Part shown: positions 4,959 to 64,000 of the stretch, piece by piece
How the letters are laid out: every line of letters starts with the position of its first letter
How positions within the stretch are numbered: the stretch's first letter is position 1
Source of the DNA: Acidobacteriaceae bacterium KBS 83
GTDB lineage: Bacteria > Acidobacteriota > Terriglobia > Terriglobales > Acidobacteriaceae
Length of the DNA: 64,000 nt
Assembly: GCA_000381585.1 (NCBI GenBank)
Contig: KB906741.1
Location: 1-64,000, forward strand
Direction of reading: 5' to 3'
The notes under the pieces: model-generated
The model's input: only the letters and a program-made list of their open reading frames with translations
Database searches by the model: none
What the model was told of the DNA's origin: nothing
Made by a program: the position numbers and the translations under genes

Positions 4959-4983
4959 GGAAGACGAGTACATGGATTGGGAC

Positions 4984-5822: not shown

Positions 5823-6020
5823 TCATCTTCCGTCTTCGTCGCAGCGAACGCAGCGCAGCAGCTTGCCCAGGTGGACCCGGCGTCCTGCCTCGATAGCGAC
5901 CCAGGGCCGCAGCTCCCATGGCGGACGATGCCGGACGTGCTGGCCATGCCCGCAGGCGAGTTCGGCGACCCAGTCGCCATGCTCGTCCTGGTGATACCCG
6001 ACGATCGGTTGCTCGGTCAT
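5823..6020 (-). CDS. DUF3565 family protein
   Basis: Small protein of 65 aa rich in Cys, His and Trp: GYHQDEHGDWVAELACGHG at the start and LLRCVRCDEDGR at the end. CGH and CxxC suggest a small metal-binding fold. This pattern is that of DUF3565, whose function is unknown. A TTG four codons upstream (6032) is an alternative start. It lies downstream of a frameshifted membrane gene on the same strand. Confidence 0.85.
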   Translation of the reverse strand: MTEQPIVGYHQDEHGDWVAELACGHGQHVRHRPPWELRPWVAIEAGRRVHLGKLLRCVRCDEDGR

Positions 6021-6083
6021 TTCTGCCGGCAATCATAATCAATTGAAGCGAGCTATATCTTGCGACGAGTTTTCCGGCAGGCT

Positions 6084-6513: not shown

Positions 6514-6529
6514 GGCGGGCAGCGACAGG

Positions 6530-7174: not shown

Positions 7175-7271
7175 GATAGACGTTCTACAAGCGTCAATGA
7201 CAGAAGGCAGAAGACAGGGGAATGCTCTCCATTTTGCGCGATTGAGCTTTGCCAACCCCCGCAAATACACT

Positions 7272-8213
7272 ATGAGTATGCATGTTCATGGAGCGCGGAG
7301 CCCTCGCACGCAGCGCATCCTGCGCCTCTCGCTGGCGGCCACGCTTTTGTACGTGCTGCTCACTTTTATTGCCGGGGTGCGCGCGCACTCGCTGGCGCTG
7401 ATCTCGGAGGCTGGCCATAATGTATCCGACGCATTGGCGCTGCTGCTCTCGTTCGTGGCTGTGCATTTCCAGGCGCGTCCAGCGTCCGACGCCAAGACAT
7501 TCGGATACCAGCGCGCCGGAGTATTGGCGGCATTCCTCAATGCGCTGACGCTGATCGTAATCGCGGTTGGCATCGCGATCGAAGCCTTGCATCGCCTTAG
7601 CAGCCCGGTAACGGTGCAACCGCGGCTGATGATGGTTGTCGCCGCAGCGGGTGTGGTGATGAATGGTGTCATAGCCGCATTTCTCTTCAGCGGCAGCCGC
7701 GACGTGAATATCCGCTCGACATTCATTCACATGCTCGGCGATACGTTGTCGACGGCTGCGGTTATCGTCGGCGGCGTCGCAATCCTGTTTACACACCTCA
7801 ACTGGATCGATCCCGTGCTGTCGCTGCTGATCGCTGCGCTGATTCTGTGGAGTTCGATTTCTATTGTGCGCGAGACGCTGAACATCCTGCTGGAGGGCAC
7901 GCCGCGCGGACTCTCCGTGCCGGAGATCCGCAACTCGCTCGCTGAGATTAACGGTGTGCTCGATGTGCACGATCTGCACGTGTGGAGCCTGGGCTCACAG
8001 ACGCGCGCGCTGGCGACCCATGTCACGATTGACGATATCCCGCCCTCTGAAAGCAACCGTATTCTGGGCGATATTCGCGAGCATCTTCTGAGCCGCTACG
8101 GCATTTACCACACCACAGTGCAGTTCGAGCATGCTGCGTGCGGCGAGGCACACGGGTGCGTTGAGGTGGTGGAAGCGGCGCATGACCACAGCCACGCGGG
8201 ACATCAGCACTAA
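7272..8213 (+). CDS. czcD: CDF family zinc/cadmium/cobalt efflux transporter (CzcD-like)
   Basis: Proton-driven metal exporter of the inner membrane, 313 aa. Six helices carry the CDF metal sites HNVSDALALL (helix II) and HMLGDTLST (helix V), followed by the cytoplasmic ferredoxin-like domain (VHDLHVWSLGSQTRALATHV). The C-terminal tail is His-rich (HDHSHAGHQH). The start is ATG 7272 or 7278 (MSMHVHG); the open frame extends 33 codons upstream, but those are not CDF-like. It overlaps no neighbour and is divergent from the short CDF gene. Confidence 0.92.
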   Translation: MSMHVHGARSPRTQRILRLSLAATLLYVLLTFIAGVRAHSLALISEAGHNVSDALALLLSFVAVHFQARPASDAKTFGYQRAGVLAAFLNALTLIVIAVGIAIEALHRLSSPVTVQPRLMMVVAAAGVVMNGVIAAFLFSGSRDVNIRSTFIHMLGDTLSTAAVIVGGVAILFTHLNWIDPVLSLLIAALILWSSISIVRETLNILLEGTPRGLSVPEIRNSLAEINGVLDVHDLHVWSLGSQTRALATHVTIDDIPPSESNRILGDIREHLLSRYGIYHTTVQFEHAACGEAHGCVEVVEAAHDHSHAGHQH

Positions 8214-8247
8214 CGACTCTTTCGTGGCGCGTCGCTACAATCGCTTC

Positions 8248-8796
8248 ATGCCCGAACCCACACCCGACGTTCTTACACGCGCGAAGCAGATCCGCCTGCT
8301 GCTTATGGACATCGATGGCACACTCTCCGCGGGTGTGTGCCTGATTTCGCTGCCCAATGATGGTGGCATTGCTGAGATGAAGGTCTTCGATCCGCAGGAC
8401 GGTCTCGCGCTGAAGCTGGCGCACACAATGGGGATCCGCACCGGCTTCATCACTGGGCGCAAATCGCCTGCGGTGGCGCAGCGCGCGCGAGAGTGCGACG
8501 TCGATTACGTCTATCTGGGACAGGCGAAGAAAAGCGAGGCATACGAAGAGTGCCTGCAGAAGGCCGGCGTCACGGACGAAGAGACTGCGTATCTGGGCGA
8601 TGATTTGCCTGACATGCCACTGAGCCGCCGTGCGGGATTGGCGATTGCGGTTGCGAATGCTGCGCCGGAGTTGAAGGCGATCAGCCACTACGTTACTGAC
8701 CGGAGCGGCGGAGCAGGAGCGGCACGCGAGGTGGTCGAACTGATCCTGAAGGCGCAGGGGCGCTGGGAGACCGCGATTCCTTTGGCGCTTGCTTAA
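8248..8796 (+). CDS. kdsC: KdsC-like HAD phosphatase (3-deoxy-D-manno-octulosonate 8-phosphate phosphatase)
   Basis: HAD superfamily enzyme of 182 aa. Motif I is LLLMDIDGTL (about residues 17-26), motif II is the Thr in FITGRK, and motif IV is GDDLPDMPL. The size, lack of a cap domain and TGRKSPAVAQRARE stretch match KdsC, which makes Kdo for LPS core. Start ATG 8248; TACAAT at about 8234-8239 could be a promoter -10 box, but no good -35 was seen. No other kds gene is next to it. Confidence 0.85.
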   Translation: MPEPTPDVLTRAKQIRLLLMDIDGTLSAGVCLISLPNDGGIAEMKVFDPQDGLALKLAHTMGIRTGFITGRKSPAVAQRARECDVDYVYLGQAKKSEAYEECLQKAGVTDEETAYLGDDLPDMPLSRRAGLAIAVANAAPELKAISHYVTDRSGGAGAAREVVELILKAQGRWETAIPLALA

Positions 8797-8811
8797 GGGA
8801 TCTTCGTGACG

Positions 8812-9606
8812 TCAGACGGGGAGTTGTGGCGTGGCGGCGATGAGTGCCCGCGTGTACTGCTCGCGCGGTGCGTGGCAAAGTGCCTCTGCTTCACCTTCTT
8901 CGACGACACGGCCGCGCTGCATGACGACGATTCGGTCTGCGAGATAGCGGACCAGCGGCATGGAATGGGTGATGAAGAGGTAGGCCATGCCGTGCTCGCG
9001 CTGCAGGGTGCGCAGCAGGTTCACGATCTGCGCGCCGACGCTGACATCGAGTGCTGAGACCGGCTCGTCCAGCACGAGCAGTTCTGGACGAAGGGCGAGC
9101 GCACGCGCGATGTTGATGCGCTGCCGCTGTCCGCCGGAGAACTCATGCGGATACCGCGGCAGGGCGGAGGCATCCAGGCCGACGCTTTTCAGCAGCTCGG
9201 CGACACGCTCGCGTTGCGCCTTGAGCCCGGACGGCAGGTGGGCCTCGCTCCCCGCCAGCGCGGAGTGGATGCGGAAGGGTTCAGTGAGGATCTGCTCTAC
9301 GCGCATGCGGGGATTGAGTGCGGCATAGGGATCCTGAAAGACCGGCTGCATGCGCCGGCGAATCCAGCGCAGGCGCTGACCGCGTGCTCTGGCGACGACC
9401 GCCCCATCGAAGCGCACCTCGCCCGCGGTCGGCTCGATCAGTCCGAGCACCATGCGGGCCACCGTGCTTTTGCCGGAACCGGATTCGCCGACGACGCCGA
9501 GCGTCTGCCCGCGTGCGATGGTGAACGAAACACGGTCGACGACAAGCGCCGCTCCTGAGGAGGAGGGGTAGCTCTTCGAGATGGCCTCGAGCTCAAGCAG
9601 CGCCAT
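8812..9606 (-). CDS. ABC transporter ATP-binding protein, oligopeptide/dipeptide (OppF/DppF) type
   Basis: ATPase of 264 aa: Walker [10 protein letters not shown] (about residues 40-48), Q-loop [12 protein letters not shown] typical of the peptide/nickel subfamily, signature SGGQRQR (about 160), Walker B LLVLDEP and H-loop THS. The C-terminus has the [13 protein letters not shown] tail seen in OppF/DppF. No permease or binding-protein genes are adjacent, so it is an orphan component. It is divergent from the amidase gene, with only 6 bp between the outermost possible starts and 42 bp to the preferred start. Confidence 0.9.
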
Positions 9607-9648
9607 GGGCGAATGCTAACATCCAGCATCCTTCTCGCCGGGAGCATC

Positions 9649-11517
9649 ATGCCACTGGATCGCCGCCGCTTCCTCGCCGTTTGTTCCACCGCAGGTCTCA
9701 CCGGCACGCTGCTGCCGGGTGCTCTTTACACGCTGGCTGTGCAGGCGGAGCAGCAGGGAAATGAAGCGGCGAAGACTCCACCGCAGATCACGAACGAGAT
9801 GCTTGAGGCGGCTGCTGCTATTGCGGGCGAGCCGCTCACCGCGGAGCAGCGCACTATGATGCTCGACGGATTGAACCAGCAGCGCAAGTCGTATGACGCG
9901 ATCCGAGCGCTTCACATTCCGAACAGCATTGCTCCGGCAATTGTGTTCGATCCGGTGCCCGCGGGCGCCGTAATCGAGACCGAGCGTCGCCCCATGCGAG
10001 TGAGCAAGGCGCCGACGATCACGAAGTTGCCATCGAACCTTGAGGAGCTGGCTTTTCTGTCCGCGCGAGAACTGGCGGAATATGTCCGCCGGAAGAGGGT
10101 GTCATCGACGGCGCTGACTGAGATGTACCTGGCCCGGCTGAAGCGCTACGATCCCATGCTGCACTTCGTCGTCACGCTGACTGAAGAACGCGCCATAACG
10201 CAGGCGCGGGAGGCGGATCGGGAGATTGCAACGGGCAAATACCGCGGGCCGCTGCATGGGCTGCCGTGGGGCGCGAAAGACCTGCTCGCCGTGAAGGGCT
10301 ATCCGACCACATGGGGCGCGGGAGGCTTCGAACATCAGAGTTTCGAAGAAGATGCGACGGTTGTGAAGCGGCTGGATTCGGCCGGCGCTGTGCTCGTCGC
10401 GAAGACCACGCTGGGCGCGCTCGCCATGGGTGACAAGTGGTTCGGGGGCCGCACGCGCAATCCCTGGAACCCGAAGCAGGGTTCCAGCGGGTCATCGGCA
10501 GGCTCGGCGTCTTCGGTTGCGGCGGGCTGCGTAGCCTTCGCCATCGGTTCGGAGACGCTGGGATCTATCTCGTCCCCGTCGACGCGCTGCGGAGCCACGG
10601 GCTTGCGGCCTACATTCGGTTTTGTTCCGCGCACCGGCGCCATGGCGTTGAGCTGGACGATGGATAAGCTTGGGCCGCTGTGTCGCGCGGTGGAGGATTG
10701 CGCGATCGTGCTCGACGCGATCCATGGCCCGGACGGCAAGGACGTGGCGGCGCGCAATGCCGGCTTTGCCTGGAACGCCGAGTTCGACTGGCGTACGCTC
10801 CGCGTGGGTTACCTGAAGGATGCGTTTCAAGCAAGCCACCCGGAGGAGGCCACAAAGCCGCCCGCCTCTGAAACGGAGACCGAGAAGAAGAAGAGACTCG
10901 CGGCAGAGCGTGACCGTGCAGCTGCGCATGCACGCCGCGAATACGATCGTCGTTACGACCAAGCAGCGCTCGAAAAGCTGCGCGCGATGGGAGTCGACCT
11001 GAAGCCGGTCGCGCTGCCGAAGTTGCCGTATGGAGATATGTCACCGCTGCTGACGGCCGAAGCGGCCGCGGCCTTCGATGATCTGACCATCAGCGGCCGC
11101 GATCGTCTGCTAACCGAGCAAAGTGCCGACGATTGGCCGAACCTCTTCCGCGTCTCGCGCCTCTATCCGGCGGTCGAGTACATCCAGGGGAATCGTGCGC
11201 GCACGCTTGCGATCCAGCAGATGGCCGCGGTCTTTCAGGAGGTCGATGTGATCGTCACGCCGAGCGGCGGCGATCAACTGGTGGCAACGAATCTGACCGG
11301 GCATCCGGCCATGATCGTACCCAACGGTATTCGCGGCAGCGACGCGCCTGTCCCGCCGAAGGTGGATGACGGCGAGGATGACTCGATCGGCGGGCCCGGC
11401 ACGCCGGTAAGCCTCACGTTCCTTGGCGGCTTGTATCAGGATGCAAAGCTGTGCGCCTTCGCGCGCGCTTATCAGGAGGCGACAGGTTTCGAGAAGATAC
11501 ATCCGAAGCTCGGCTGA
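9649..11517 (+). CDS. Tat-exported amidase (amidase signature family)
   Basis: Protein of 622 aa from ATG 9649. The N-terminus MPLDRRRFLAVCSTAGLTG is a twin-arginine-type signal, pointing to a periplasmic or cell-surface enzyme. The amidase signature domain starts near residue 120. Its Ser-cisSer-Lys triad is visible: Lys in WGAKDLLAVKG (about 210), the GSSGSSAGSASS run (about 280-290) and GSETLGSISSP. An unusual charged segment (ETETEKKKRLAAERDRAAAH) interrupts the domain near residue 420. GatCAB is excluded by the signal peptide and the lack of gatC/gatB. Substrate unknown. Confidence 0.88.
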   Translation: MPLDRRRFLAVCSTAGLTGTLLPGALYTLAVQAEQQGNEAAKTPPQITNEMLEAAAAIAGEPLTAEQRTMMLDGLNQQRKSYDAIRALHIPNSIAPAIVFDPVPAGAVIETERRPMRVSKAPTITKLPSNLEELAFLSARELAEYVRRKRVSSTALTEMYLARLKRYDPMLHFVVTLTEERAITQAREADREIATGKYRGPLHGLPWGAKDLLAVKGYPTTWGAGGFEHQSFEEDATVVKRLDSAGAVLVAKTTLGALAMGDKWFGGRTRNPWNPKQGSSGSSAGSASSVAAGCVAFAIGSETLGSISSPSTRCGATGLRPTFGFVPRTGAMALSWTMDKLGPLCRAVEDCAIVLDAIHGPDGKDVAARNAGFAWNAEFDWRTLRVGYLKDAFQASHPEEATKPPASETETEKKKRLAAERDRAAAHARREYDRRYDQAALEKLRAMGVDLKPVALPKLPYGDMSPLLTAEAAAAFDDLTISGRDRLLTEQSADDWPNLFRVSRLYPAVEYIQGNRARTLAIQQMAAVFQEVDVIVTPSGGDQLVATNLTGHPAMIVPNGIRGSDAPVPPKVDDGEDDSIGGPGTPVSLTFLGGLYQDAKLCAFARAYQEATGFEKIHPKLG

Positions 11518-11639
11518 AAAGAGAAGGCGACGAATCCTGTTCGCCGCCCCGCAGGATTCCAGAATTGGCCTATTGCTTCAACTACACTTCGGTGTACGAA
11601 ACCTTCTCGTTGCGCTCACGGATTGCGCTGAAAGAGAAA

Positions 11640-11667
11640 GCGGCTGCTCGAGGATTGGAGCAGCCGC
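11640..11667. terminator. stem-loop between amidase and gyrB
   Basis: A perfect 10-bp stem (GCGGCTGCTC / GAGCAGCCGC) with an 8-nt loop. On the minus strand it is followed by a T-rich run (TTTCTCTTTC), so it probably ends gyrB transcription; on the plus strand there is no T-run. Confidence 0.7.
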
Positions 11668-11687
11668 CGATGCGGAGTGGAACTGGC

Positions 11688-14636
<2,949 letters not shown>

Positions 14637-15524
14637 ATGGCTCCGCCTCCCCAATCCGTATTGTTCTGGCTCAGGTTTGTCACGGTTCTAGAGAGCGCTT
14701 TGCTGCTGGCCGCGTACGTTGGCGGACTGCGGAAAGACCGGATCTATCCCGCGATGCGCGCCTACCTGTTGGTGAATGCCCTCGCCGGAGCTCTGGTGTG
14801 CACGCTACTCGGATTTCCGGGTTTGTTGGTAGGCAGGGAGTCGACGGTATATTGCACCCTTTTCTGGATCGCCTACGGTGCCTCGGGCGTTCTCACATTC
14901 CTCACCGCGCAGCAGATCTTTCGCGACGCACTCGAGCCGCTTCCCGGCCTGCGCCGGCTGGCGCTGGTGGCGTTCCGCTGGGTGGCTGTGGTTTCTGTCG
15001 CCCTTTCCGTCGTTCCGGCAATCGTGCCGCTTTTCTTTCACTGGGTTTCGCTGCAGATCACGGTGCTGCAGGCCATGCGCTGCGTCAGCGTGCTGGAGTT
15101 TTGCCTTCTTGCTTTCATCCTGCTTTCAGCGCAGACACTGGGCATCTCTTGGCGCAGCCGCATCGTAGGCATCACGCTCGGCTTCGGCGTGCTCGCCGTG
15201 GTGGACACGGTCTGCTTCATGTTCCTGCTACGCTCGCTCTCGCATCTGCTGCCCTGGCTGGTGGTGCGGGAGACGGGTAGTGCAATTGCCGCAGCCCTGT
15301 GGCTGGGCTATCTGATGATGCCTGAACCGAAGCGCACGGCTGTCCGGCTGGAGAGCAGTTCGCAGTTGCAGAAGTGGAATGAGATCGCAGTCGCGCTCGG
15401 CAAGCCGGCGCCGCACATCGCGCTCGGACAGCCCGATCCCGCGCCGTTCTTCCTGCAGGATGTGGAGCGCGTGGTGGACCGCGTGCTGAGCCGGAATGAA
15501 TTGGATCCCCCTGTGGCCCGCTGA
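14637..15524 (+). CDS. conserved hypothetical integral membrane protein
   Basis: Protein of 295 aa with about seven hydrophobic helices covering residues 5-225, then a polar cytoplasmic-type tail of about 70 residues. No catalytic or transport motif is recognisable. Seven-helix proteins of this style are common as hypotheticals in acidobacteria (my impression, not checked). Start ATG 14637 with AAGG upstream. It is convergent with rpmA and shares a bidirectional terminator with it. Confidence 0.75.
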   Translation: MAPPPQSVLFWLRFVTVLESALLLAAYVGGLRKDRIYPAMRAYLLVNALAGALVCTLLGFPGLLVGRESTVYCTLFWIAYGASGVLTFLTAQQIFRDALEPLPGLRRLALVAFRWVAVVSVALSVVPAIVPLFFHWVSLQITVLQAMRCVSVLEFCLLAFILLSAQTLGISWRSRIVGITLGFGVLAVVDTVCFMFLLRSLSHLLPWLVVRETGSAIAAALWLGYLMMPEPKRTAVRLESSSQLQKWNEIAVALGKPAPHIALGQPDPAPFFLQDVERVVDRVLSRNELDPPVAR

Positions 15525-15558
15525 AGCTGTGACCAACAGCCACGGTTGCAAAAAGACC

Positions 15559-15585
15559 AAGGCCAGAGCGAAATGCCCTGGCCTT
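15559..15585. terminator. bidirectional terminator between membrane protein gene and rpmA
   Basis: Stem AAGGCCAG (15559-15566) / CTGGCCTT (15578-15585) with an 11-nt loop, between convergent genes. A short T-run follows on the plus strand and a CTTTTTG run on the minus strand. Confidence 0.75.
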
Positions 15586-15628
15586 TCAACTTTGTCGAAA
15601 CTCCGACGTAAGACGTAGGAGCTCTGTT

Positions 15629-15898
15629 TTACGCGGTGGGCAATTCCGCCGGTTCCACCGAGACGAAGCGACCGCTCTTGCCCTTGTCCTGGAACTTGAT
15701 CTTGCCGGTGATCTTGGCGAAGAGCGTGTCATCGCTGCCGCGGCCGACATTCAGGCCGGGCTTGATGCGCGTGCCGCGCTGGCGCACGATGATGGAGCCG
15801 CCCGGCACCACCTCGCCGGCAAACCGCTTGACGCCGAGCCGCTGTGCATTCGAGTCGCGGCCATTTTTCGAACTGCCTAAACCTTTTTTGTGTGCCAT
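15629..15898 (-). CDS. rpmA: 50S ribosomal protein L27
   Basis: Basic protein of 89 aa: [20 protein letters not shown] at the N-terminus, then [20 protein letters not shown], the L27 signature. Start ATG 15898 with GAGG 7 nt upstream. It lies 54 bp downstream of rplU, the standard L21-L27 operon. It sits at the peptidyl-transferase centre of the large subunit. Confidence 0.98.
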
Positions 15899-15952
15899 TT
15901 CAGGTCCTCAAGAATCTATGCCGGTCAGGCCGGCGCTATTCGTTCGCCGCTT

Positions 15953-16282
15953 TTACTTTTCTGCGCGGTAAGTGGTGCCATCGACTTCGATCTCGTTGAT
16001 GCGGACCGAGGTGAAAGCCTGGCGGTGGCCCTGGAGCTTCTTGTACTGCTTCTTCCGCTTGTAGTGGAAGACCAGGATCTTGTCGCCACGGCCTTCGCCG
16101 AGCACGGTCGCCGTCACCCTGGCATTCTGCGGCTTGTCCAAGGCACCTTCGGAGGTCGAAGTGGCAACCACATCGCTGAACTCGATCGTCTCGTTGGCCG
16201 CGGCTCCGGCCTTCTCGATGCGCAGCACATCACCAGGCGCCACGCGATACTGCTTTCCACCAGTGCGGATCACCGCGTACAT
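15953..16282 (-). CDS. rplU: 50S ribosomal protein L21
   Basis: Protein of 109 aa starting MYAVIRTGGKQYRVAPGDV and containing the family motif KILVFHYKRKKQYKKLQGHRQ. The start has a strong ribosome site (GGAGGG) three bases upstream. It is the first gene of the rplU-rpmA pair. The obgE gene that often follows is not present here. Confidence 0.98.
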   Translation of the reverse strand: MYAVIRTGGKQYRVAPGDVLRIEKAGAAANETIEFSDVVATSTSEGALDKPQNARVTATVLGEGRGDKILVFHYKRKKQYKKLQGHRQAFTSVRINEIEVDGTTYRAEK

Positions 16283-16470
16283 AAACCCTCCACAGCTCCA
16301 ATAGGAGCCGGAATTCAGAAGTCAGTTGGGCGGATACATGCTTTCGCTCACTCGCGCACTGCTCGACCGCCCGAAACCGGGCAACGAATCAGAGCTGCGG
16401 AAGGGGCCTCTCTACTGGTCTGATTTTAGACACAAAGAGGTACAGGCAGGATCGCCGGAACCTATTCAGT

Positions 16471-17817
16471 CTAACTGGAGAGGTCCGGCCGGTCAATCAT
16501 CGCAGGCCCCGGATTGACGGTTTCCGCGCTCTGAAACAGGAAAACCCCAAGCACGGCAATCAACGGTTCCAGCGGATGCCGAAAGCGCGCATGCACGGTA
16601 ACGAAGTAGTAGACCGCTGGCAGGGTGAGAAAGGCGAACGCGAAAAGCCAAGCGCCATAAATGCGTCGGTGGAGGGCCATCAGAAGGCCCAGCAAACCGG
16701 CCGTGCTGAGGAAGCCAAAGTTCAGGCTGCGGAAGAAGCGGGTGACTGCGCTGCTGCTAGGCGAGGGTACGCCGAACCAGAAAAAATACAGGCGTTTGAG
16801 CGTGTTTCGTATGAAAAGCCAGCGGTCGGCCCGGATCGTTTGTTTCGCGAGCTCGCCGCGCATCTGCGCATACCGGTACTCACCCATCATCGAGTAAAGC
16901 CGAAGCTGCTGAGGGTCCTGGGCAGGATGGTGGTATTCCATCAGCAACCCTGTCGCTCCGGGGCCGTTGCCCAGGCAGAGCTCCGCGCCAAAGTTGGCCC
17001 GGAGTGGCACGAAATGCTGGAAGTCTCGCGTATTGCGCGCTATCCAGGGCGTCAGAATGGCAAGGAAGATCACGGCGCTGAGCGCGGCGCCGACCAGGCC
17101 GCGAGCCAGGACGGACCTCTGGCCAGTCAGGATCCAGACTCCGGCAAAGGGTAGGAAGAGCACCAGCGAGGGGTTTGCGAGGGCGATGGCGCCCCAGAGA
17201 AGCCCGAAGAAGATCCAGTCACGGATTGCGAATCGCGCAGGGCGGTCAGGGGAGCGCTGATGCATCCGCAGGGCCAGGGCAAAGGCCGTGTTAAAGAGCA
17301 AGGTGCTCAGGCTGGTCTCCCAAACCCAGCGGACGGCGTACTGCATGGCCGCCGGATAGAGCGCCCACAACCAGACGGCCCAGCGCTGGATGCTTGCGGC
17401 GCGGTCGGATCCGGAAGCAGCGAAGCAGCGTCGCGTGATCGCGGCAATGGGGAAGACGGTGAGCGCGCTGAAGAGCGAGTTCAGGGCGAGCAGGATCCAG
17501 GCCGAGGTCAGGGTGTAGACGCCCGTGAGCTTGAAAACGAAGGCCATCAACAGCGGATAGACCGGAGTGACCCATGCCGTCGGGCCGGTATGACCCTTGA
17601 AGGGGTCCGCGAAGCCGTGGCCGGCGGCCAGCGAGCGAGCGATGCGGCCCATCTCCCAGCCGAACTCGAAGTGGTCGGGGAAGGGTCGGATGCGGTAGGT
17701 GTGGGCGAGTGTGACGTAGGCCACGCGCACCAGAAAGGCCACCCAGAAGGCAAGGGTGGTCCGTTCGAAAGGGCGGCGTGCGCTCTCCTTCGGGATGTTC
17801 GGCGGGTGCTTTCTCAT
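16471..17817 (-). CDS. membrane glycosyltransferase of the PMT/ArnT (GT39/GT83-like) superfamily
   Basis: Polytopic protein of 448 aa with about ten helices. The first loop holds the acidic pattern RIRPFPDHFEFGWEMGRIARSL, typical of polyprenyl-phosphate-sugar-dependent glycosyltransferases, and RWVWETSLSTLLFN follows in a later segment. The C-terminus has YFVTVHARFRHPLEPLIAVL, the common ending of this class. It probably transfers a sugar from a lipid carrier on the periplasmic side. Donor and acceptor are unknown. It lies upstream of rplU on the same strand but 188 bp away. Confidence 0.8.
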   Translation of the reverse strand: MRKHPPNIPKESARRPFERTTLAFWVAFLVRVAYVTLAHTYRIRPFPDHFEFGWEMGRIARSLAAGHGFADPFKGHTGPTAWVTPVYPLLMAFVFKLTGVYTLTSAWILLALNSLFSALTVFPIAAITRRCFAASGSDRAASIQRWAVWLWALYPAAMQYAVRWVWETSLSTLLFNTAFALALRMHQRSPDRPARFAIRDWIFFGLLWGAIALANPSLVLFLPFAGVWILTGQRSVLARGLVGAALSAVIFLAILTPWIARNTRDFQHFVPLRANFGAELCLGNGPGATGLLMEYHHPAQDPQQLRLYSMMGEYRYAQMRGELAKQTIRADRWLFIRNTLKRLYFFWFGVPSPSSSAVTRFFRSLNFGFLSTAGLLGLLMALHRRIYGAWLFAFAFLTLPAVYYFVTVHARFRHPLEPLIAVLGVFLFQSAETVNPGPAMIDRPDLSS

Positions 17818-56976: not shown

Positions 56977-57051
56977 GGCGCGGTACCCAAGTGGTAAGGG
57001 AGAGGTCTGCAAAACCTTTATGCGTGAGTTCGATTCTCACCCGCGCCTCCA
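56977..57051 (+). tRNA. tRNA-Cys(GCA)
   Basis: GGCGCGG acceptor pairs with CCGCGCC, anticodon GCA in GTCTGCAAAAC, T-loop GAGTTCGATTCTC, CCA encoded at 57049-57051. The integrase gene begins 76 bp beyond, so the 3' end of this gene is the likely integration site. Confidence 0.95.
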
Positions 57052-57126
57052 ATCTTTTCAATGGTTTACGTTCAGGCACCCATAAGGCTAATTCCCTCCT
57101 CGTGGGGACTTTTTGCATTTGGCTCT

Positions 57127-58233
57127 TTACTGCGTCATCGCGGGCTGGTCTTTCTCAAAAGCAGCAATCTGCTGAGCCGCGTTGAACTTTTCTAGTTGCT
57201 CCATTGCCTTCGCCTGAGTTGGGTGAGCATAGCGAAGCACCATTTGGATTCTCGAGTGACCTAACATCGCGGCTAGCGTCACAAGGTCGATGCCAGACAT
57301 GGCGGCGCGTGTCGCCCATGTGTGGCGCAGATCGTACAAGCGGAGCGGCGCAATCTTGCTGTCCTTTACTGCGCGGTCGTGCGCATTGTTAACCTTCGGA
57401 ATGGGACGCTTGGAATCGGCCTCGCATGGAAATACGTACGCGGTTTCTAAACCGGTCATTCTTCGCTTGAGCACTTCTACCGCCGCAGAAGTCAGAGTTA
57501 ACAGCCGACGCGCAGCCATTGTCTTGCTGTGGGGAACCTGTATGGTTCGCCGTTCCAAGTCCACGTTCTCAGGCCGGATAGTGTATACCTCCTCGGGGCG
57601 CATACCCGTCTCAAGGATGAGCCGCGCAATGTCTCGGAGCACTGGGGATGTCTTCTCGAAGTAAGTACGCTCTTCAGCATGAGACAGAACCCGCGTCTGC
57701 TGGTTGTTCTCGGCCAGAAGCTTCACCCGGCTTACGGGGTTCTTCATCACAACATCGGCCTTAATGATGAAGTTGAAAAGAGCCTTCAGGCAGGCCAATT
57801 CACGATTGACCGTTGCGGGATGGAGCCTCTTCTTCGTCAGTACCCGGCCCCTTTTGCTGCGCGCCGTCTTGAACTCACCCCGATCGTGTTGTCTTGAATC
57901 GCTCGACCTCTTCCGGGGTGATCTTATCGAGGGGAGTGTCTCCAAGTATCGAAGCAGAGCAAGAGTGCTCACCTTGTAGCGCGTATGAGTGCGCGGGTGC
58001 GCGGCGTGCTCTTCCTCAGACCATTGCAGGAATTCGCTCATGCTTGAGCGAAAGCCGGGTATAGGCTTGCGCTCCGTAATGCCTACTTCGCCTTTATTGA
58101 GTGCCGTCCGAAATGCTCTCTCGATGTCCTCCGCGTTCCTGCAATTCCTAACACCCGTGCTTTTGCGATACCGCCGCCCGTGATGCCAGAACTCGAACCA
58201 ATAGATGCCGCCGCCCCGCTTGAACACTGACAT
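57127..58233 (-). CDS. int: tyrosine recombinase/phage-type integrase with a compensated double frameshift
   Basis: 368 aa from ATG 58233 (AAAGGAGAG upstream). Catalytic residues: Arg in ETGMRPEEVYTIRPEN (about 230), Lys region PHSKTMAARRLL, His-x-x-Arg in LRLYDLRHTWATR (about 305), His in LGHSRI and Tyr in LRYAHPTQ (about 338). In the core-binding domain (about nt 57880-57945) the translated frame gives SIRSPRKRSSDSRQHDRG. The shifted frame reads GDTPLDKITPEEVERFKTTR, which is the expected family sequence, so two opposite one-base shifts flank this stretch. The gene lies just beyond tRNA-Cys, pointing to site-specific integration. Confidence 0.9.
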   Translation of the reverse strand: MSVFKRGGGIYWFEFWHHGRRYRKSTGVRNCRNAEDIERAFRTALNKGEVGITERKPIPGFRSSMSEFLQWSEEEHAAHPRTHTRYKVSTLALLRYLETLPSIRSPRKRSSDSRQHDRGEFKTARSKRGRVLTKKRLHPATVNRELACLKALFNFIIKADVVMKNPVSRVKLLAENNQQTRVLSHAEERTYFEKTSPVLRDIARLILETGMRPEEVYTIRPENVDLERRTIQVPHSKTMAARRLLTLTSAAVEVLKRRMTGLETAYVFPCEADSKRPIPKVNNAHDRAVKDSKIAPLRLYDLRHTWATRAAMSGIDLVTLAAMLGHSRIQMVLRYAHPTQAKAMEQLEKFNAAQQIAAFEKDQPAMTQ

Positions 58234-58235
58234 TC

Positions 58236-58994
58236 TTATTTGCTCTCCTTTCTCGTGGTTCGTCCTGTTTGTGGTGGCCCGGAGTTCGATTTCCCGGCTG
58301 ACGCCTTCGCCCGCTTTCGTTCGTTGTAGCTTCGTACTGATTGCAGATGAGCACAGTCTGTATCGCAAAAGAGCTTTGCGCGCTTGCTTTCCAGCTTGAA
58401 TACCTTGCCGCAGTCTTCACGCGCGCAACGTCGCCAAGGAAATCCGTCCAGGCGGTCCAAAAAAAACGATGCTCTCATTGCATCCTGAATGTCCTTGCAG
58501 CGAACGATTACAGTCGGCGGTTGGTGAAACGTCATTTCCATCGGAAGCGGCTGCCATAGATACCAATCTTGCAAGAGCGTGCGCATTTGCTCATTCGTGG
58601 AAGCCTTCTTAATGCTCCAAACCTCTCTCGACAATAAAGCGTCCTGGTAGAAATCACGTTGGCGGGCCAGATGCGAGAACGTAATCGTCGTTGGATCGGT
58701 CCCAAGATGCTCGTTGATCTGCCAGGGACCATACGCCTGGAAAAAAGCCAATGCCTGAGCTGCATCCTTAACGGAAAACAAAGCCTCCCTGATATCGAAA
58801 ACATTGAAATCTGTCGGCTTCAAAGACCAGCTCTTTGAGCCATCCGGCCGGACGACTGGGGTGTTCTGCCAAGAGAATTTGAAAACGGGATCAGCATCAT
58901 TGCTCATGCTCACATCCCAACCTCCCCGCGTTTCCAGGAAGGGCCTGATTGGGAGTGTGTAGACCTTCTTTGACATGAAGTTTGTCTTGTTCAT
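58236..58994 (-). CDS. CGNR-like zinc-finger protein of the mobile element
   Basis: 252 aa from ATG 58994. The C-terminal CGNR-type finger is WRRCAREDCGKVFKLESKRA then LFCDTDC with a basic tail (CxxxxC...CxxxC), probably DNA binding. The N-terminal 190 residues have no fold I recognise. Its TAA lies two bases before the integrase ATG, so the two genes are probably co-translated. Proteins of this style are frequent beside integrases in acidobacterial islands (my impression). Confidence 0.75.
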   Translation of the reverse strand: MNKTNFMSKKVYTLPIRPFLETRGGWDVSMSNDADPVFKFSWQNTPVVRPDGSKSWSLKPTDFNVFDIREALFSVKDAAQALAFFQAYGPWQINEHLGTDPTTITFSHLARQRDFYQDALLSREVWSIKKASTNEQMRTLLQDWYLWQPLPMEMTFHQPPTVIVRCKDIQDAMRASFFLDRLDGFPWRRCAREDCGKVFKLESKRAKLFCDTDCAHLQSVRSYNERKRAKASAGKSNSGPPQTGRTTRKESK

Positions 58995-59115
58995 ATCAAA
59001 ACTATGGCTATACAGTCGCATGCAAGGGACAACTTGTAAAGCGGAAACGGGCCAAGACCAGCCCGGGGTTCCCAATCCGCTGCAAGGTGCCGCTTAGGAA
59101 AAGGGAGAACGGGAC

Positions 59116-59308
59116 ATGCTTGTAGGCGATTTGGTGACAACGAAAGAGGCCGCGGAACTGCTCAGGGTTTCGCCGTGGACGGTTTCAGCATGGCTATCGC
59201 AGGGAAAACTACGCCGTGTAAAGGCGGGAGGCCGCACGCTGATTGCGAAGGCCGACCCTTGAGGCTTTTCTCCGTCCCGGAAATCAACTTCGGTCCGCTG
59301 TCCAGTGA
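59116..59308 (+). pseudogene. xis: excisionase-like helix-turn-helix protein with a +1 frameshift
   Basis: From ATG 59116 (AAGGGAGAAC upstream) the frame gives VTTKEAAELLRVSPWTVSAW, then a basic wing, GKLRRVKAGGRTLIAKA, the MerR/excisionase fold. It stops at 59262 after only 48 codons. One extra C (GACCCTT instead of GACCTT, 59255-59260) is responsible; the other frame continues DLEAFLRPGNQLRSAVQ to TGA 59308, the normal ending of such proteins (about 63 aa). Divergent from the integrase operon, as for excisionases. Confidence 0.75.
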
Positions 59309-59325
59309 AGAGCGCTAAGGGTCCA

Positions 59326-59823
59326 ATGGCAAGAAAGATTAAAGACGGGTCGTATACGCAGTGGTATCGCCACAATATAGACCGATGGCAGGGCAGCGCA
59401 GAGATCAATGCCCTGAGCTGCGAAGGGTATCGGGCGTTTCACAACCTGGTGATGTATCAGTTCCAGCGGCCGGATGGATTGTTACCGGATGACGAGCGTA
59501 CGCTGCGCGTGCAAAGCCGCCTCCCGCTGCAATCACAATGGGACGGCTGCCGCGCTGAAGTGCTTGCAATGTTCGAGCGGAAGGGCGAAGGCAAGCTCGC
59601 CAACATGGTCATGTACCGTGAATGGCTATTCATACAGGAAGCGCGCGAAGCTAAATCAAACGCAGGAAGAACCGGTGCGAAAGCGCTGTGGGATGGCGAA
59701 CCTGATATGGCAGACGCATGCGAGTGGGATAGCAACCGCATAGCAGACGCATGCCAGCCGCATGAAGTCGCAATGGCAGAAAATGGCACAGAACAGCACA
59801 GAACAGTACAGTACAGGAGATGA
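59326..59823 (+). CDS. DUF1376 (YdaU-like) phage replication-associated protein
   Basis: 165 aa from ATG 59326. The opening has WYRHNIDRWQGSAEINALSC and GYRAFHNLVMYQFQRPDGLL, typical of DUF1376. The middle part is a helical region with LQSQWDGCRAEVLAMFERKG, and the tail is Glu/Gln-rich. These proteins often sit upstream of phage replication initiators; it is followed by such a gene with a 60-bp overlap. Confidence 0.8.
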   Translation: MARKIKDGSYTQWYRHNIDRWQGSAEINALSCEGYRAFHNLVMYQFQRPDGLLPDDERTLRVQSRLPLQSQWDGCRAEVLAMFERKGEGKLANMVMYREWLFIQEAREAKSNAGRTGAKALWDGEPDMADACEWDSNRIADACQPHEVAMAENGTEQHRTVQYRR

Positions 59824-60463
59824 CGTATCGGATTTTACTAACGTAAAATCCTCACCCCGAGCGCAACGCTCGGGGAATGCTCGGAAGGTCAATCCCTACG
59901 AAGTTCTCTACCTAGCCTATCCCCGGAAGGTTGGGAAGAAAGTAGCGATAGACGCCATTAAGCGTGCCGTAGATCGCGTGGAATCCCGCACAAAAGCGGA
60001 GGGCGCAACGAAGCTGGACGCGCAGCGGTGGCTCTATGCGCGCACGCTGGCCTTCGCGCGTTCACCCGCCGGAAATCGCGGCAACCTAACGCCTCATCCG
60101 GCAACGTGGTTCAACCAAGGGCGATATGACGACAACCCGACAGAGTGGGAGCAAATAGGCGATGGAACAAATCAGCAACGAAGCGGCTTTGGCCGCACAA
60201 AAAGCGAGCGAAATCTTGACGCTCTCAGAGAAGCAATTGGACTCGCACCGGCAATGGATATGCGCGCAACTGGCGCTGGTGGCGAGCGCGCGGCAGGCGA
60301 TCATATCGGCGGTGGATTTGCCTGTACTCGACGGAATTACGGGACTACGGCAGGGAGGATATCGCGGTGGCAGTCCGGGAGCTATGCAGATGTAGACGTA
60401 GTGAGGGGGGGACGGCCTTTCCTGCTCTTGCAACGGTGCTCGTCATGGTCCGGGGTGTTGTGA
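59762..60463 (+). CDS. phage-type replication/DnaD-like protein
   Basis: Up to 233 aa from ATG 59762 (ATG 59783 also possible). Core: NPYEVLYLAYPRKVGKKVAI (residues about 44-63) and LTPHPATWFNQGRYDDNP (about 108-125), a pattern common in prophage replication proteins. The last 50 residues look low-confidence, since two other frames (60162-60395 and 60367-60600) also look coding there. The true end may be different. Confidence 0.65.
   Translation: MKSQWQKMAQNSTEQYSTGDDVSDFTNVKSSPRAQRSGNARKVNPYEVLYLAYPRKVGKKVAIDAIKRAVDRVESRTKAEGATKLDAQRWLYARTLAFARSPAGNRGNLTPHPATWFNQGRYDDNPTEWEQIGDGTNQQRSGFGRTKSERNLDALREAIGLAPAMDMRATGAGGERAAGDHIGGGFACTRRNYGTTAGRISRWQSGSYADVDVVRGGRPFLLLQRCSSWSGVL
60162..60395 (+). 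CDS. possible small protein overlapping the replication gene
   Basis: 77 codons from ATG 60162. It starts SNEAALAAQKASEILTLSEK, is Ala/Gln-rich and likely helical. It has a better-looking composition than the C-terminal part of the competing frame. Lack of a good ribosome site and total overlap keep confidence low. Confidence 0.3.
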   Translation: MEQISNEAALAAQKASEILTLSEKQLDSHRQWICAQLALVASARQAIISAVDLPVLDGITGLRQGGYRGGSPGAMQM

Positions 60464-60600
60464 ACGATAGAAGACGCAGAGAGACGACAAAACGCATGAA
60501 GGGATGCACCCGCTGCAATGGCATCGGAATGGAGATTGTCAGAAATGGAAACGAGACCGCGGCGCGTGTATGCGAATGCCGCCGTGACATCGCGCAATGA
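60367..60600 (+). CDS. small Cys-rich protein of the mobile element
   Basis: The frame is open from GTG 60367, but the credible part is from ATG 60496: MKGCTRCNGIGMEIVRNGNE then AARVCECRRDIAQ, with a CxxC and CxC suggesting a tiny zinc ribbon. Its TGA overlaps the next ATG (ATGA). The start is uncertain. Confidence 0.5.
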   Translation: MAVRELCRCRRSEGGTAFPALATVLVMVRGVVNDRRRRETTKRMKGCTRCNGIGMEIVRNGNETAARVCECRRDIAQ

Positions 60601-60746
60601 TCGGCGGGTACGAGTGTATTGGCTCGGACGTTACAGTGCAGGTGACAGATGATATGCGGCGCTCTTCGGGCAAACTTATAGAGTTCAATGACGTCATGGA
60701 GCTTAACTCCCATGCGAAAAGAGTGCGTCAGAGTGTCCGCCAATAG
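60597..60746 (+). CDS. 49-residue ORF coupled to the previous gene
   Basis: ATG 60597 overlaps the upstream TGA (ATGA). MIGGYECIGSDVTVQVTDD then LIEFNDVMELNSHAKRVR: mixed charged, with no recognisable family. Supported by the stop-start overlap and an otherwise clean frame. Confidence 0.5.
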   Translation: MIGGYECIGSDVTVQVTDDMRRSSGKLIEFNDVMELNSHAKRVRQSVRQ

Positions 60747-60787: not shown

Positions 60788-61279
60788 CTATCTACCTATC
60801 TCATAAATATCCTGTGGCGGGTTCGCGCCGGCTCGAATCCACTTCTGGTTTGCGTGGACTGAAGTGATGAGGGAGACGAACTCCGGAAATGATTCAAATT
60901 CAGTTCTCAAATGCTCCCATTCACGTACAAATAAGGGACTCCGGAACCTCCGCTCAGCGGAACGTAGCATCAACTCCCACATCCGTTTTGGTATGCGGTG
61001 TTCGCGAAATAGAAGATAGGTTAGTGAAACCAGGGTGCAGAATCGTAACATCGACATGCTTAAATTGTCCGTTCTCTCAGGGAGCTTCGTGCCAGGTGGC
61101 ACACTCAGCCAGAATTCCGCCGAAGAGTTCTTCAACAGTTCGTCATACTGGGCAGACATTGCCAAGAAGATCTGCGTCTTCACCTGCTCACGGTGATTTA
61201 AGACTGCGACAACCACGCCGAGACCTCCCATCAGAAGTGAGAATAATGTTGTGTATTGGATAACGTGTCCAATGTTCAT
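60788..61279 (-). CDS. membrane-anchored hypothetical protein downstream of an RND pump
   Basis: 163 aa from ATG 61279, five bases after the stop of the RND gene, so probably translated with it. One N-terminal helix (VIQYTTLFSLLMGGLGVVVA, about 6-25), then a soluble helical domain with RMWELMLRSAERRFRSPL. No known family seen. An upstream extension of the frame overlaps the RND gene and is not used. Confidence 0.6.
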   Translation of the reverse strand: MNIGHVIQYTTLFSLLMGGLGVVVAVLNHREQVKTQIFLAMSAQYDELLKNSSAEFWLSVPPGTKLPERTDNLSMSMLRFCTLVSLTYLLFREHRIPKRMWELMLRSAERRFRSPLFVREWEHLRTEFESFPEFVSLITSVHANQKWIRAGANPPQDIYEIGR

Positions 61280-61284
61280 AGCAA

Positions 61285-64000
61285 TCACGCAAGCACCTCC
61301 GATATTGCAGGCATCTCTGCCGATTTCTCTGAAGCGGCCGAGCCCGTGTGCTCCGCTTGTTCCCAACGGATCAATTTCAGATCCAGCACGACGAAGGAGT
61401 AGAGGACCGGAACCAGCCCAAGCGTCACGAAAGTGGCGATCGTCAGGCCGCCGATCTGCGCATAGCAAAGCGGCTCCCACAGCGGGCCACCGTGTGCAGC
61501 CAATGGAAACAGCGCAATCACGGTGGCCGCGACTGTGATCATGACGGGCCGCAAACGGAGTATGCCCGCATCGATCAGCGCCAACTCCAATTCCTCGCCC
61601 GCTTCTCTTCGTTCTTCGATAAATTCAAACAGCACGATGATGTGGCTCACAATTACACCAATGAGACTGATGATCCCCAGGAACGCCATGAAGCCAAATG
61701 GCTGGCCCATGATGGCGAGTGAAAAGATGGCCCCGACCACGCCATAAGGAATGGCCGCAAAGACAATCACGGGCTTGAACGCATGCTTGAACTGCGCGAG
61801 GAGGGCCAGGTAAATGGAACACACGCAAATTACCAACACCGTTGTGAGGTCTCCAAAGCCGCTGACCTGCTCCTTTTGCTCGCCTGCAAAGCGGAAAATA
61901 AAGCCATTGGGGAGCTGCTTCTGGAACTCTTGCAGCTTGGGCATAGCCGCCGAGATGACTTCCGAAGGTAAATGCCCTTCGGTAGGCCAGCATTGCACCG
62001 TGATGGTCCGGTATTGATCGAAGCGTCGGATTTTTGGCGTTACCGGTTCCAAGGAAACCGTCGCCACCTGATCGAGAGGTACTGGAGGCGTGTCCTGTCG
62101 CGAAAAGACATATAGACTGCGCAGATCGGAGAGCTGGGCTCGCTCCTCCATTCGCATGCGTCCAAAGATCGGAATCTGCTTGTTACCATCTCTCAACACT
62201 CCAGCCGAGACTCCATGAAGAGCCGCAGCGATCGAATCGGAAACATCCGCGTTTGTGACGTGCGCCAGGTTTGCCCGATCCACATCGACGTGCGCCACTT
62301 CTCTCGCACTCGGCTCGCCCCAATCGTCTCGAACCCTGGCGGCGACCGGGATATCGCGAAAGATTTGCTTCAGCTTCTCGGCTTCCGCTCTGAGGCGCGG
62401 CAGGTCTTCGCCGGAAATCCTGACCTGAACCGGTGTTCCAACCGGCTTGCCTGTTTCGAGGGTCCGCGTGTCAATGATTGCTCCAGGAATCTGCCTGTCC
62501 AATTCCGGCTGCAATAGGGCGAGAAGAGGGGTCGTATCATGATTGTTCTTGGTTCGCAGAATCACCTGAGCGTAATTGGCTTGCCTGTCCTCAGGTGTGG
62601 CGCTACTCCAGAAGCGGGGGCCGCCGCCTCCCACAAACGTCGTCATCGATTGCAAGACATCCTTCGAGTGTCCGTGCTCGGGGTGGCTCTTGCCATAGTC
62701 TTCCGCTACGCGGCGCGTAATCGATTCCACTTGGTGAGCGACCGCGCTGGTCGAGCTCGCTGGAGAGTCTTCAGGCAGCCACACGTCGATATAAGAAAAG
62801 TACTGAAGGTCTTTGGGAAAGAACTGCGGCTTTAGCGTAGAGAACACGACACCGCCCGCTACCAGCAGAATAAGCGACGCCCCCAGGCAGACCTTCCTGT
62901 GTTCAATGGCCTTCTTTGCCGTTCGGAAATACCAGCCCGTGAACCCCCGCTGCCGCCTTTCCTCGATTGGCGTTTCGGTATTGCTTTTCAAAAGAAACGA
63001 ACTGATAAGCGGCACAAAGGTCATAGAGACCAACAGCGCGGCCAGCAGCGAACAACTAATGACAATGGGCAGGCTGCACAGGAATTTCCCTGTGTCTCCC
63101 GGTAGCAGCAGGAAGGGCAGATACGAGACGATATTCGTCACGGTTGCGTAGGCCATCGTCTTAAACAGCTTTGTCGGCCCCCGCCACGCGGCGGTGGACC
63201 TCGGCTGGCCCTCGCCCAGTTCACGCACAATAGCGTCGCCCGACACCACTGGTACGTCTACCAGCAATCCCAGGGCAATGATCAGCGAAGCGATCGAGAC
63301 CTGTTGCAGGTCAATCCCAAGGGTGCTGATGACTCCAAACGTAATCGCCAGCGTAATCGGCATCGATGCCGCGATCAGCAGGGCTGTCCGCCAGCTCCAA
63401 AAGCCGATCAGAGCCACGATGACCACCAGCACTAGCGCCTCGATCAAGCTATGGCTGAAGAGCTCAATACTGTCGTGCACCTGCAGCGGTTGGTCTGAGG
63501 TCCTGGCCAAAACCAGATCAGCCGGCAATGACTTCCTGACGCTCTCGAGATTTGCGTCCACCAGTTTGCCGAAAGAGCTGATTTGTTCTCCCTTCCTCAT
63601 CTGCACGGAGAGCGTAATCGCGCGCGTGGTGATCCAGTTGCCGTTCTCGTCGCGGCGCGTGAACCGGTTCAGGAACGAAGCGGGACTTTCGTATCCCCTT
63701 TCGATATCCACCACGTCTCGCAAATAGAGCGGCGCTCCGTTCGGGGATGTGCCGATGATCACATTCCGCAGATCATCGACGCTTTTGAACTCGCCCGTTG
63801 TGGTGATGCTGACCGTGCGTCCTCGCGCGTTGAGCGTTTGCCCGCTGTCCGGCAGATTCCGAGCCGCGAGGATGTTGGGGAGATCCGCCGGCCTGAGCTT
63901 GTATTGCGCCAGGCGTTCCTGCGAGAAATTCAGAAATGTGTTCTCGTCCAGGACGCCCGACCGCTCTACCTTCGACACGATCGGCAGCGTTTTGAGACTT
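61285..64000 (-). CDS. RND family efflux transporter permease (partial, N-terminus off the right edge)
   Basis: About 905 aa of an AcrB/MexB-like proton-driven pump subunit. It runs off the window at 64000 with the frame open, so the true start lies outside. Helix 2-4 region: SHSLIEALVLVVIVALIGFW; helix 4 reads GLLVDVPVVSGDAIV in place of the standard LVDD..; helix 10 reads SLIGVIVSHIIVLFEFIEE; periplasmic porter domain with QPELDRQIPGAIIDTRTLE. The two-Asp proton relay of AcrB is reduced to one Asp here. Substrate unknown. Adaptor and outer-membrane genes may lie beyond the edge. Confidence 0.88.
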   Translation of the reverse strand, partial: SLKTLPIVSKVERSGVLDENTFLNFSQERLAQYKLRPADLPNILAARNLPDSGQTLNARGRTVSITTTGEFKSVDDLRNVIIGTSPNGAPLYLRDVVDIERGYESPASFLNRFTRRDENGNWITTRAITLSVQMRKGEQISSFGKLVDANLESVRKSLPADLVLARTSDQPLQVHDSIELFSHSLIEALVLVVIVALIGFWSWRTALLIAASMPITLAITFGVISTLGIDLQQVSIASLIIALGLLVDVPVVSGDAIVRELGEGQPRSTAAWRGPTKLFKTMAYATVTNIVSYLPFLLLPGDTGKFLCSLPIVISCSLLAALLVSMTFVPLISSFLLKSNTETPIEERRQRGFTGWYFRTAKKAIEHRKVCLGASLILLVAGGVVFSTLKPQFFPKDLQYFSYIDVWLPEDSPASSTSAVAHQVESITRRVAEDYGKSHPEHGHSKDVLQSMTTFVGGGGPRFWSSATPEDRQANYAQVILRTKNNHDTTPLLALLQPELDRQIPGAIIDTRTLETGKPVGTPVQVRISGEDLPRLRAEAEKLKQIFRDIPVAARVRDDWGEPSAREVAHVDVDRANLAHVTNADVSDSIAAALHGVSAGVLRDGNKQIPIFGRMRMEERAQLSDLRSLYVFSRQDTPPVPLDQVATVSLEPVTPKIRRFDQYRTITVQCWPTEGHLPSEVISAAMPKLQEFQKQLPNGFIFRFAGEQKEQVSGFGDLTTVLVICVCSIYLALLAQFKHAFKPVIVFAAIPYGVVGAIFSLAIMGQPFGFMAFLGIISLIGVIVSHIIVLFEFIEERREAGEELELALIDAGILRLRPVMITVAATVIALFPLAAHGGPLWEPLCYAQIGGLTIATFVTLGLVPVLYSFVVLDLKLIRWEQAEHTGSAASEKSAEMPAISEVLA

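Follow-up and report, generated by a model that had tools for sequence, protein, structure and literature searches.

What kind of element is inserted at the tRNA-Cys gene of Acidobacteriaceae bacterium KBS 83, how far does it reach, and what might be the role of the zinc-finger gene coupled to its integrase gene? The DNA in question comprises positions 1 to 64,000 of contig C9 (KB906741.1) of the 6.25-Mb genome, a stretch of 64,000 nucleotides that is called the window here. A preliminary description made from the letters of the window had read positions 56977–60746 as an integrated element with a phage-satellite-like layout and had left its zinc-finger protein of the CGNR type without a function. 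We consider the following explanation the best one and give it a probability of roughly 0.55: an element at tRNA-Cys that is excised and copied by its own genes and transferred by a helper, and in which the CGNR protein acts as autorepressor of an operon formed by its own gene and the integrase gene (int). The comparisons behind this assessment, three of the four alternatives and the points on both sides are given in the first three sections; the fourth alternative follows with the relatives in the second.

Extent and gene content of the element

The 3′ end of the tRNA-Cys gene is repeated exactly over 53 bp, with the two copies (attL and attR, Table 1) lying 13,982 bp apart; a looser alignment of the two att sites covers 62 bp at 95% identity. 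The tRNA 3′-end repeat that the preliminary description proposed to look for downstream occurs once in the window and a second time, also exactly, at C9:71014-71029. The element therefore does not end at 60746, as had been assumed; it is 13,982 bp long and extends 7 kb beyond the window end. At attR no tRNA was detected by ARAGORN, which is expected if the element restored the tRNA gene at the integrase side.

An empty site is present in the other genome of the same genus that was compared (G040, contig C315), where an intact tRNA-Gly/tRNA-Cys pair is found and no island. The left flank is 78–81% identical. On the right, homology covers 111 bp at 76.6% and then 1,172 bp at 77.6%, and it begins 1.7 kb past attR in the window genome and 0.7 kb past the tRNA in G040. 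In the G040 stretch nothing matches the approximately 1.7 kb directly right of attR, in which a formyltransferase gene lies, and due to this gap the right junction is not resolved to the base. Judged from the att repeats, the cassette of int and the excisionase gene (xis), the empty site and the relatives of this cassette at many tRNA genes, a 13,982-bp integrative element is inserted at tRNA-Cys, and one of its ends lies in the window. The reading as an integrated element thus stands, with a second exact att copy, an empty site in the same genus and related islands elsewhere. A tRNA island is an ordinary kind of object; this one leads to a broader family.

The genes named in the preliminary description were confirmed (Table 1). 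The integrase gene adjoins the 3′ end of the tRNA, and its start lies 2 nt after the stop codon of the CGNR gene, in agreement with the proposed translation in tandem. An excisionase-like gene is divergent from the CGNR gene and is followed by the genes for the DUF1376 and the replication protein. The tiny overlapping open reading frames (ORFs) exist as well and remain only ORFs, without a convincing family match (best E 0.017). The zinc-finger gene is real, while its match to zf-CGNR (PF11706) is weak and does not reach the curated cut-off (21.2 bits vs 24). An alternative in-frame start of this gene is at 58994. The zinc-finger cysteines are invariant in an alignment of the family (19 distinct rows, window included).

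Table 1. Features of the tRNA-Cys element within the window (positions of the window; contig positions are marked C9)
Feature	Position	Strand	Evidence and remarks
tRNA-Cys (GCA), insertion target; gene intact on the int side	56977..57051	+	ARAGORN; Rfam tRNA 65.5 bits (in L009)
attL, 53-bp repeat	57002..57054	+	exact second copy, attR, outside the window at C9:70984-71036
Tyrosine integrase (int)	57127..58233	-	PF00589 6.7e-24; phrog_1 2.1e-54; ATG at 58233
CGNR-type zinc-finger protein, C4 zinc finger at the C terminus	58236..58976	-	PF11706 2.6e-4, below cut-off
Operator-like motif AAGACAAACTTCATGTCAAA spanning the CGNR start; it contains two similar 7-mers at a distance of 12 bp	58969..58988	-	cross-locus motif search
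Best promoter-like sequence upstream of CGNR, TTTACA-17-GACTGT	59012..59040	-	weak: 28.5% of control windows score as high
Excisionase-like HTH_17 protein (Xis), divergent from CGNR	59116..59262	+	PF12728 1e-10; TIGR01764 "excise" 2.5e-9
DUF1376 protein	59305..59823	+	PF07120 4.8e-8
Replication initiation-like protein	59762..60463	+	phrog_270 6e-11; phrog_9474 1.5e-10
Three small overlapping ORFs (77/77/49 aa)	60162-60395, 60367-60600, 60597-60746	+	ORFs only
ORF	60788..61480	-	no family match; true start probably near 61285, the end of the RND gene
RND efflux pump gene (1212 aa)	61285..64000, continues past the window (L009:4486-8124)	-	PF00873 7.6e-150

No capsid, terminase, packaging or capsid-remodelling gene was found among the window and island proteins scanned, so that the earlier statement of "no structural genes" holds for these proteins; what had been missed is the cargo. 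Beyond the window, the RND gene is followed by genes for an adaptor, an outer-membrane factor, a TPR protein, a receiver and a HATPase, and then by attR (domain matches in this region: PF16576, PF02321, TPR, PF00072 at 29.0 bits, just under the cut-off, and PF13581). A tripartite RND efflux operon is thus cargo of the element. No relaxase family was recognised with Pfam among 10 window proteins and 9 proteins of the island and its flank, a scan that covered the larger ORFs of the right part, defence-system models gave no match to 8 window proteins, and no Prim-Pol was found among the window proteins scanned.

The same tRNA-Cys carries an island in a genome of another genus (G023), and for this reason tRNA-Cys is, by this comparison of two genomes, a hot spot for islands. 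The G023 island (L179, G023:C70:163500-183499, reverse strand 2758-17102) has a 45-bp repeat at both ends and contains a different RND operon, a 508-aa multicopper-oxidase-like ORF and regulators, all named by eye; no int, CGNR or xis gene was found in it by tblastn. Cis-mobilizable islands and their accretion at tRNA genes are a known class. The G023 island, with its att repeats and no integrase found, is alike, whereas the window island has its own int. The KBS 83 locus might accordingly be composite, with an element of about 4 kb (int, CGNR, xis and the replication gene) lying beside an older RND island without int at the same tRNA-Cys, the att site between them having been lost. The 14.3-kb island of G023 and the size of the minimal relatives, only 3.8–4.5 kb, are in line with this, but inside the element there is no third att copy even at 16/20 matches, and we regard a composite origin as possible though doubtful.

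Signs of damage raise the further question whether the element can still move. At 57875-57945 of int, about 20 residues of the N-terminal part are in another frame, with compensating shifts on either side (read by eye), reflecting either two compensating frame changes or assembly errors. The Xis has 48 aa vs 71 aa in a 91%-identical relative (L026/L051/L076), the difference being located at 59255-59265. Assembly indels or decay may account for the shortened Xis and the frame changes in int alike. If decay is the cause, the element would be a remnant that is no longer mobile. However, the 53-bp att repeat is exact, and the match to the catalytic domain PF00589 covers nearly its whole length with no stop in between. 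Small indels are also common assembly errors, and an immobile remnant appears unlikely to us.

A recurring cassette of integrase, zinc-finger and excisionase genes

With the zinc-finger protein of the window as query, relatives were found in 20 of 200 genomes of the same family, including its own genome. Another member as query gave relatives in 29 of 398 genomes of the family, two of which (G038, G131) have weak N-terminal-only matches and may not be relatives, and in 11 of 299 genomes of the class. A profile search detected at least 8 of 396 genomes of the phylum, a lower bound, as part of the candidates of each genome were scored. The genome samples of the family, class and phylum searches overlap. 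Named records with relatives are an Acidobacterium sp., a Terriglobia bacterium and a metagenome-assembled genome of Candidatus Angelobacter.

For comparison 44 loci were taken, 43 of them distinct after removal of one duplicate, and searched with profiles for the four cassette proteins. A tyrosine integrase gene is next downstream on the same strand in 29 of the 43 loci (L073, at a contig end with masked bases, is uncertain), four have a divergent serine recombinase, and ten have neither recombinase adjoining. Among the 29 tyrosine-integrase loci, a divergent xis is present in 22 and a tRNA gene lies within 600 bp in 20 (Cys, Lys, Leu, Arg, Met, Glu, Ala, Val, Pro); 27 have CGNR and int ORFs that overlap or are at most 30 nt apart, many of the longest-ORF starts being uncertain. 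The check proposed in the preliminary description, a look for the same gene set at tRNAs of other genomes, thus had a positive outcome. Exact repeats of at least 33 bp bound eight elements of 3.8 to 15.4 kb (L040, 3,783 bp; L046, 4,492 bp; L036, 4,498 bp; L048, 7,670 bp; L134, 7,756 bp; L120, 10,987 bp; window, 13,982 bp; L045, 15,420 bp). Shorter repeats, of 18 and 19 bp, are present in two further loci; the sequence stretch examined gave no bounding repeat for the remaining 19 of the 29. By their sequences these loci are a recurring, little-described group of small mobile elements in which an integrase gene is paired with a zinc-finger gene.

The small bounded relatives (3.8–4.5 kb) consist of int, CGNR, xis and a few small ORFs, two of the three with a primase or replication-type gene (Prim-Pol in L040, a weak phrog_270 match in L036); no replication gene was recognised in L046. 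Prim-Pol is also present in L128. The largest bounded element, at tRNA-Leu (L045, G199:C143, 3790-19250, 15.4 kb), combines the cassette with HNH, TerS, TerL and major head genes and resembles capsid-forming satellites; no portal or tail gene was found among the 17 ORFs scanned, which were the longer ones.

Such relatives raise the possibility that the element of the window is itself a phage satellite, packaged in particles of a helper phage. The size range of 3.8–15.4 kb and the core of int, xis and replication genes would fit, as would the capsid-carrying L045 and the restriction genes of larger relatives (type I in L120 and MmeI type in L134; GmrSD genes lie near the cassette of L044, whose element ends are not known). 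On the other hand, the element of the window has no packaging gene that we could find. Its zinc-finger protein has no relative in 50,697 phage records and a single one in IMG/VR over five scans. No helper was identified, with one HK97-type capsid match in the genome (one capsid family searched) and no tail genes in the ORF list, read by eye, of the 40-kb stretch around it. Phage and plasmid records in general contained no close DNA or protein relatives (protein queries were the zinc-finger protein of the window and, for plasmids only, that of L052). In view of the small bounded relatives and of L045, a "phage-satellite-like layout" is a fair description; that the element is a satellite stays a hypothesis, to which we attach a low probability, and its cargo is an efflux pump and not a set of phage-interference genes.

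Several relatives differ from the common arrangement. In L037, L042, L043 and L131 the CGNR gene is divergent from a large serine recombinase gene that overlaps tRNA-Glu with its 3′ end. In L045 and L048 (and, by position, in L076) the integrase is oriented towards the 5′ side of the tRNA, and the att repeat of L045 and L048 spans the 5′ half of this tRNA and not its 3′ end. A second, distant cassette is present in the genome of the window (L054, G000:C3:106200-126199), together with a helix-turn-helix replication-type ORF and a DnaB-like helicase, both assigned by eye; the motif described below was not found there. L035, L039, L040 and L044 share a protein of 109–205 aa with cysteine pairs and a RRVAxLY stretch, the L040 copy of which has no match in Pfam or PHROGs. 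In L127 (G568:C249), a cassette at tRNA-Cys near a contig end, the CGNR gene is split into two ORFs.

A motif at the start of the zinc-finger gene and its possible reader

In the divergent region of the window, 7-mers repeated at a distance of 12 bp were noticed at the start of the zinc-finger gene. A Gibbs search over 29 loci with a well-defined N terminus yielded a 20-bp motif, AAGACACAAATCATGGCACA, which is new here. With leave-one-out matrices, the best site of the whole locus on both strands is at the CGNR start in 22 of the 29 loci. When the search was repeated on the same loci with other seeds, the count was 19 of 29, whereas random ORF starts from these loci, taken in four sets, reached 2, 0, 3 and 1 of 29. 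All loci were included when the motif was first placed, and the cross-locus test was devised after the pattern had been seen. The other 14 loci were outside the test for a late start of the hidden Markov model (HMM) match, as duplicate locus or for a contig end; among them, L070 has a strong start site (25.6) and the duplicate L125 has the site of L076.

The start codon frequently falls within the right half of the motif. For this reason the left half, which is mostly non-coding, was also tested alone on these 22 loci; it ranks 10th or better in 14 of them and poorly in the rest. The letters of the motif are translated in different frames from locus to locus (KSQNMSQ in L048, QVTKHVT in L046), and, judged by eye, they do not coincide with the start codon in L037, L053 and L131; this places the signal on the DNA (or RNA) and not in the protein alone. 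Just upstream, 16 of these 22 loci have a promoter-like sequence (at the 5% level of control windows, coding DNA included), and perfect inverted half-sites occur upstream in 4 of 22 loci vs 0.21 expected.

Which protein might read this motif? It is present in the four serine-recombinase loci (L037, L042, L043, L131), which gave no match for Int or Xis, and also in L041 and L124, which have no adjoining recombinase; hence the motif tracks CGNR. A Xis 91% identical to that of the window (L026, locus of L076) accompanies a different motif. As far as these sequences indicate, the zinc-finger protein is the common factor of the motif-bearing loci. The half-sites also vary with one position of the zinc-finger helix: GGC half-sites go with Ser/Asn in 12 of 12 loci and GTC half-sites with Ala/Thr in 8 of 9, the window being the exception and L041 (GAC) left out (half-site base G or T vs helix residue, 12/12 vs 1/9, Fisher 4e-5). 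This association is taken as a lead only, confounded by descent. Among nine relatives scanned for PF11706, three are above the cut-off (L046, 25.3; L040, 27.0; L052, 25.7), three are below and three have no match. The model of the zinc finger alone consists of a hairpin and a long helix (predicted local distance difference test, pLDDT, 72); its top fold match, 3h0n, is not significant (Foldseek E 2.0, VIA Z 3.0), and a sequence search of solved structures gave nothing significant. The protein of 3h0n, the zf-CGNR protein Jann_2411, was proposed from its structure to be a DNA-binding regulator, according to the part of the source concerned with it (PMC2954205). A literature search, judged by titles, gave no test of such a regulator role.

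Together these observations suggest how the element may work. The tyrosine integrase and the small Xis would excise it as a circle, and the DUF1376 and replication-initiator-like proteins would help to copy it. As no transfer or capsid gene was found, its transfer would depend on a helper, i.e., a phage or a conjugative element. The CGNR protein would bind the 12-bp-spaced repeat at its own start and thereby keep the CGNR–int operon, perhaps also the divergent xis, at a low level, and release of this repression would let the element excise. For such quiescence the phage repressor and Stl of phage-inducible chromosomal islands (PICIs) serve as comparison, and by analogy the CGNR protein would be their counterpart. 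What the preliminary description had left without function thus has a candidate role, by comparison only.

Alternatively, the CGNR protein could be a cofactor of excision acting with Int and Xis instead of a repressor, and the motif could be a recombination site of any of the three. Xis sites, too, typically have direct repeats spaced by about one helical turn, and the close coupling of CGNR to int, with 2 nt between them in the window and the overlaps or short gaps in 27 of 29 loci, would suit such a partner. In addition, the int-overlapping gene iolg of PICMI115, one of the phage-inducible chromosomal minimalist islands (PICMI) of Vibrionaceae, is needed for excision according to the passages on it (PMC10803314), which makes this a serious rival. 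Against it, the motif is at a gene start, mostly just downstream of a promoter-like sequence, and not at att; it also occurs in loci without detected Int and Xis, and a near-identical Xis accompanies a different motif. A cofactor role is accordingly rather unlikely in our view.

A number of points weigh against autorepression by the CGNR protein in a functional element. The frame-shifted stretch of int and the short Xis indicate that this copy may be decayed or mis-assembled. Iolg occupies the same place, overlapping int, and the cited passages assign it to excision, not repression. The zf-CGNR proteins of two other mobile elements are listed, in the passages that describe them, beside LlaJI restriction genes, which would suit another role (PMC3485107, PMC4260502). 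Seven of the 29 loci failed the leave-one-out test (L074, L075, L049, L054, L120, L128, L136). L129, which qualified for inclusion by its HMM start but was left out, has no site; counting it, 22 of 30 is the fairer figure. The rest of the 14 loci outside the test, which are more distant, have no site at the CGNR start. A generic test for direct repeats at lag 12 over the 43 loci was not significant (combined p 0.70), since the repeats are short and vary between loci; the cross-locus test was used in its place. In the window itself, the left half of the motif ranks only 155th, the promoter-like sequence is unremarkable, and the rule linking half-site and helix residue is broken. This association has only one supported independent pair on the tree of the N-terminal part, and common descent can thus explain it. 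Finally, the full-length CGNR model is poor (pLDDT 47.8).

Relation to described elements and meaning of the finding

The nearest described layout is that of PICMI; the comparison is limited to the passages of the source on these islands (PMC10803314). Both groups are small (PICMI115, 6.1 kb; small bounded relatives here, 3.8–4.5 kb) and have int with a coupled gene of unknown function, an excision protein and small ORFs; some members here also have a primase and anti-phage cargo, and the small ones have no capsid genes. In contrast to PICMI, for which integration at fis is a hallmark, the CGNR elements are at tRNA genes (tRNA-Cys in the window). Their Xis is of the HTH_17/excise type instead of AlpA; the Xis of the window is an excise-type protein without AlpA among its listed families. 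Moreover, the int-coupled gene belongs to a zinc-finger family, the phylum is another one and no helper phage is known here.

With capsid-forming PICIs, as far as the relevant part of the source describes them (PMC11389934), L045 shares HNH, TerS, TerL and major head genes in a bounded element of 15.4 kb without tail genes found; unlike them, the element of the window lacks these genes and L045 has no recognisable portal. To the zf-CGNR/ABATE regulator Jann_2411, in the passage of PMC2954205 on its structure, the proteins described here are similar in their C-terminal C4 zinc finger with matching cysteines. They differ from such regulators in having no ABATE match among the proteins scanned, an unrelated and variable N-terminal part and a linkage to recombinases. 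The zf-CGNR proteins of Tn6164 and prophage Phi1207.3 likewise have a C-terminal CGNR zinc finger inside a mobile element; they are listed next to LlaJI restriction genes and not as a pair with an integrase, and no operator is described in the respective passages (PMC3485107, PMC4260502). A literature search, judged by its listings, gave nothing on phage satellites or elements of this kind in Acidobacteria.

In its widest form, the idea is that many minimal integrative elements of Acidobacteriota, probably phage satellites, form a large undescribed family with the CGNR proteins as its lysogeny switch: one protein family with its own tandem operator would control tyrosine-integrase, serine-recombinase and capsid-carrying elements alike and evolve new operator specificity via the zinc-finger helix. 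We offer this as a speculative proposal that is improbable in its full extent. In KBS 83, an efflux pump is carried by one of these elements. With its predicted operator, the recurring cassette of int, zinc-finger and xis genes can serve to detect further elements of this kind in draft genomes, and the same predicted operator offers a concrete DNA target for zf-CGNR proteins.

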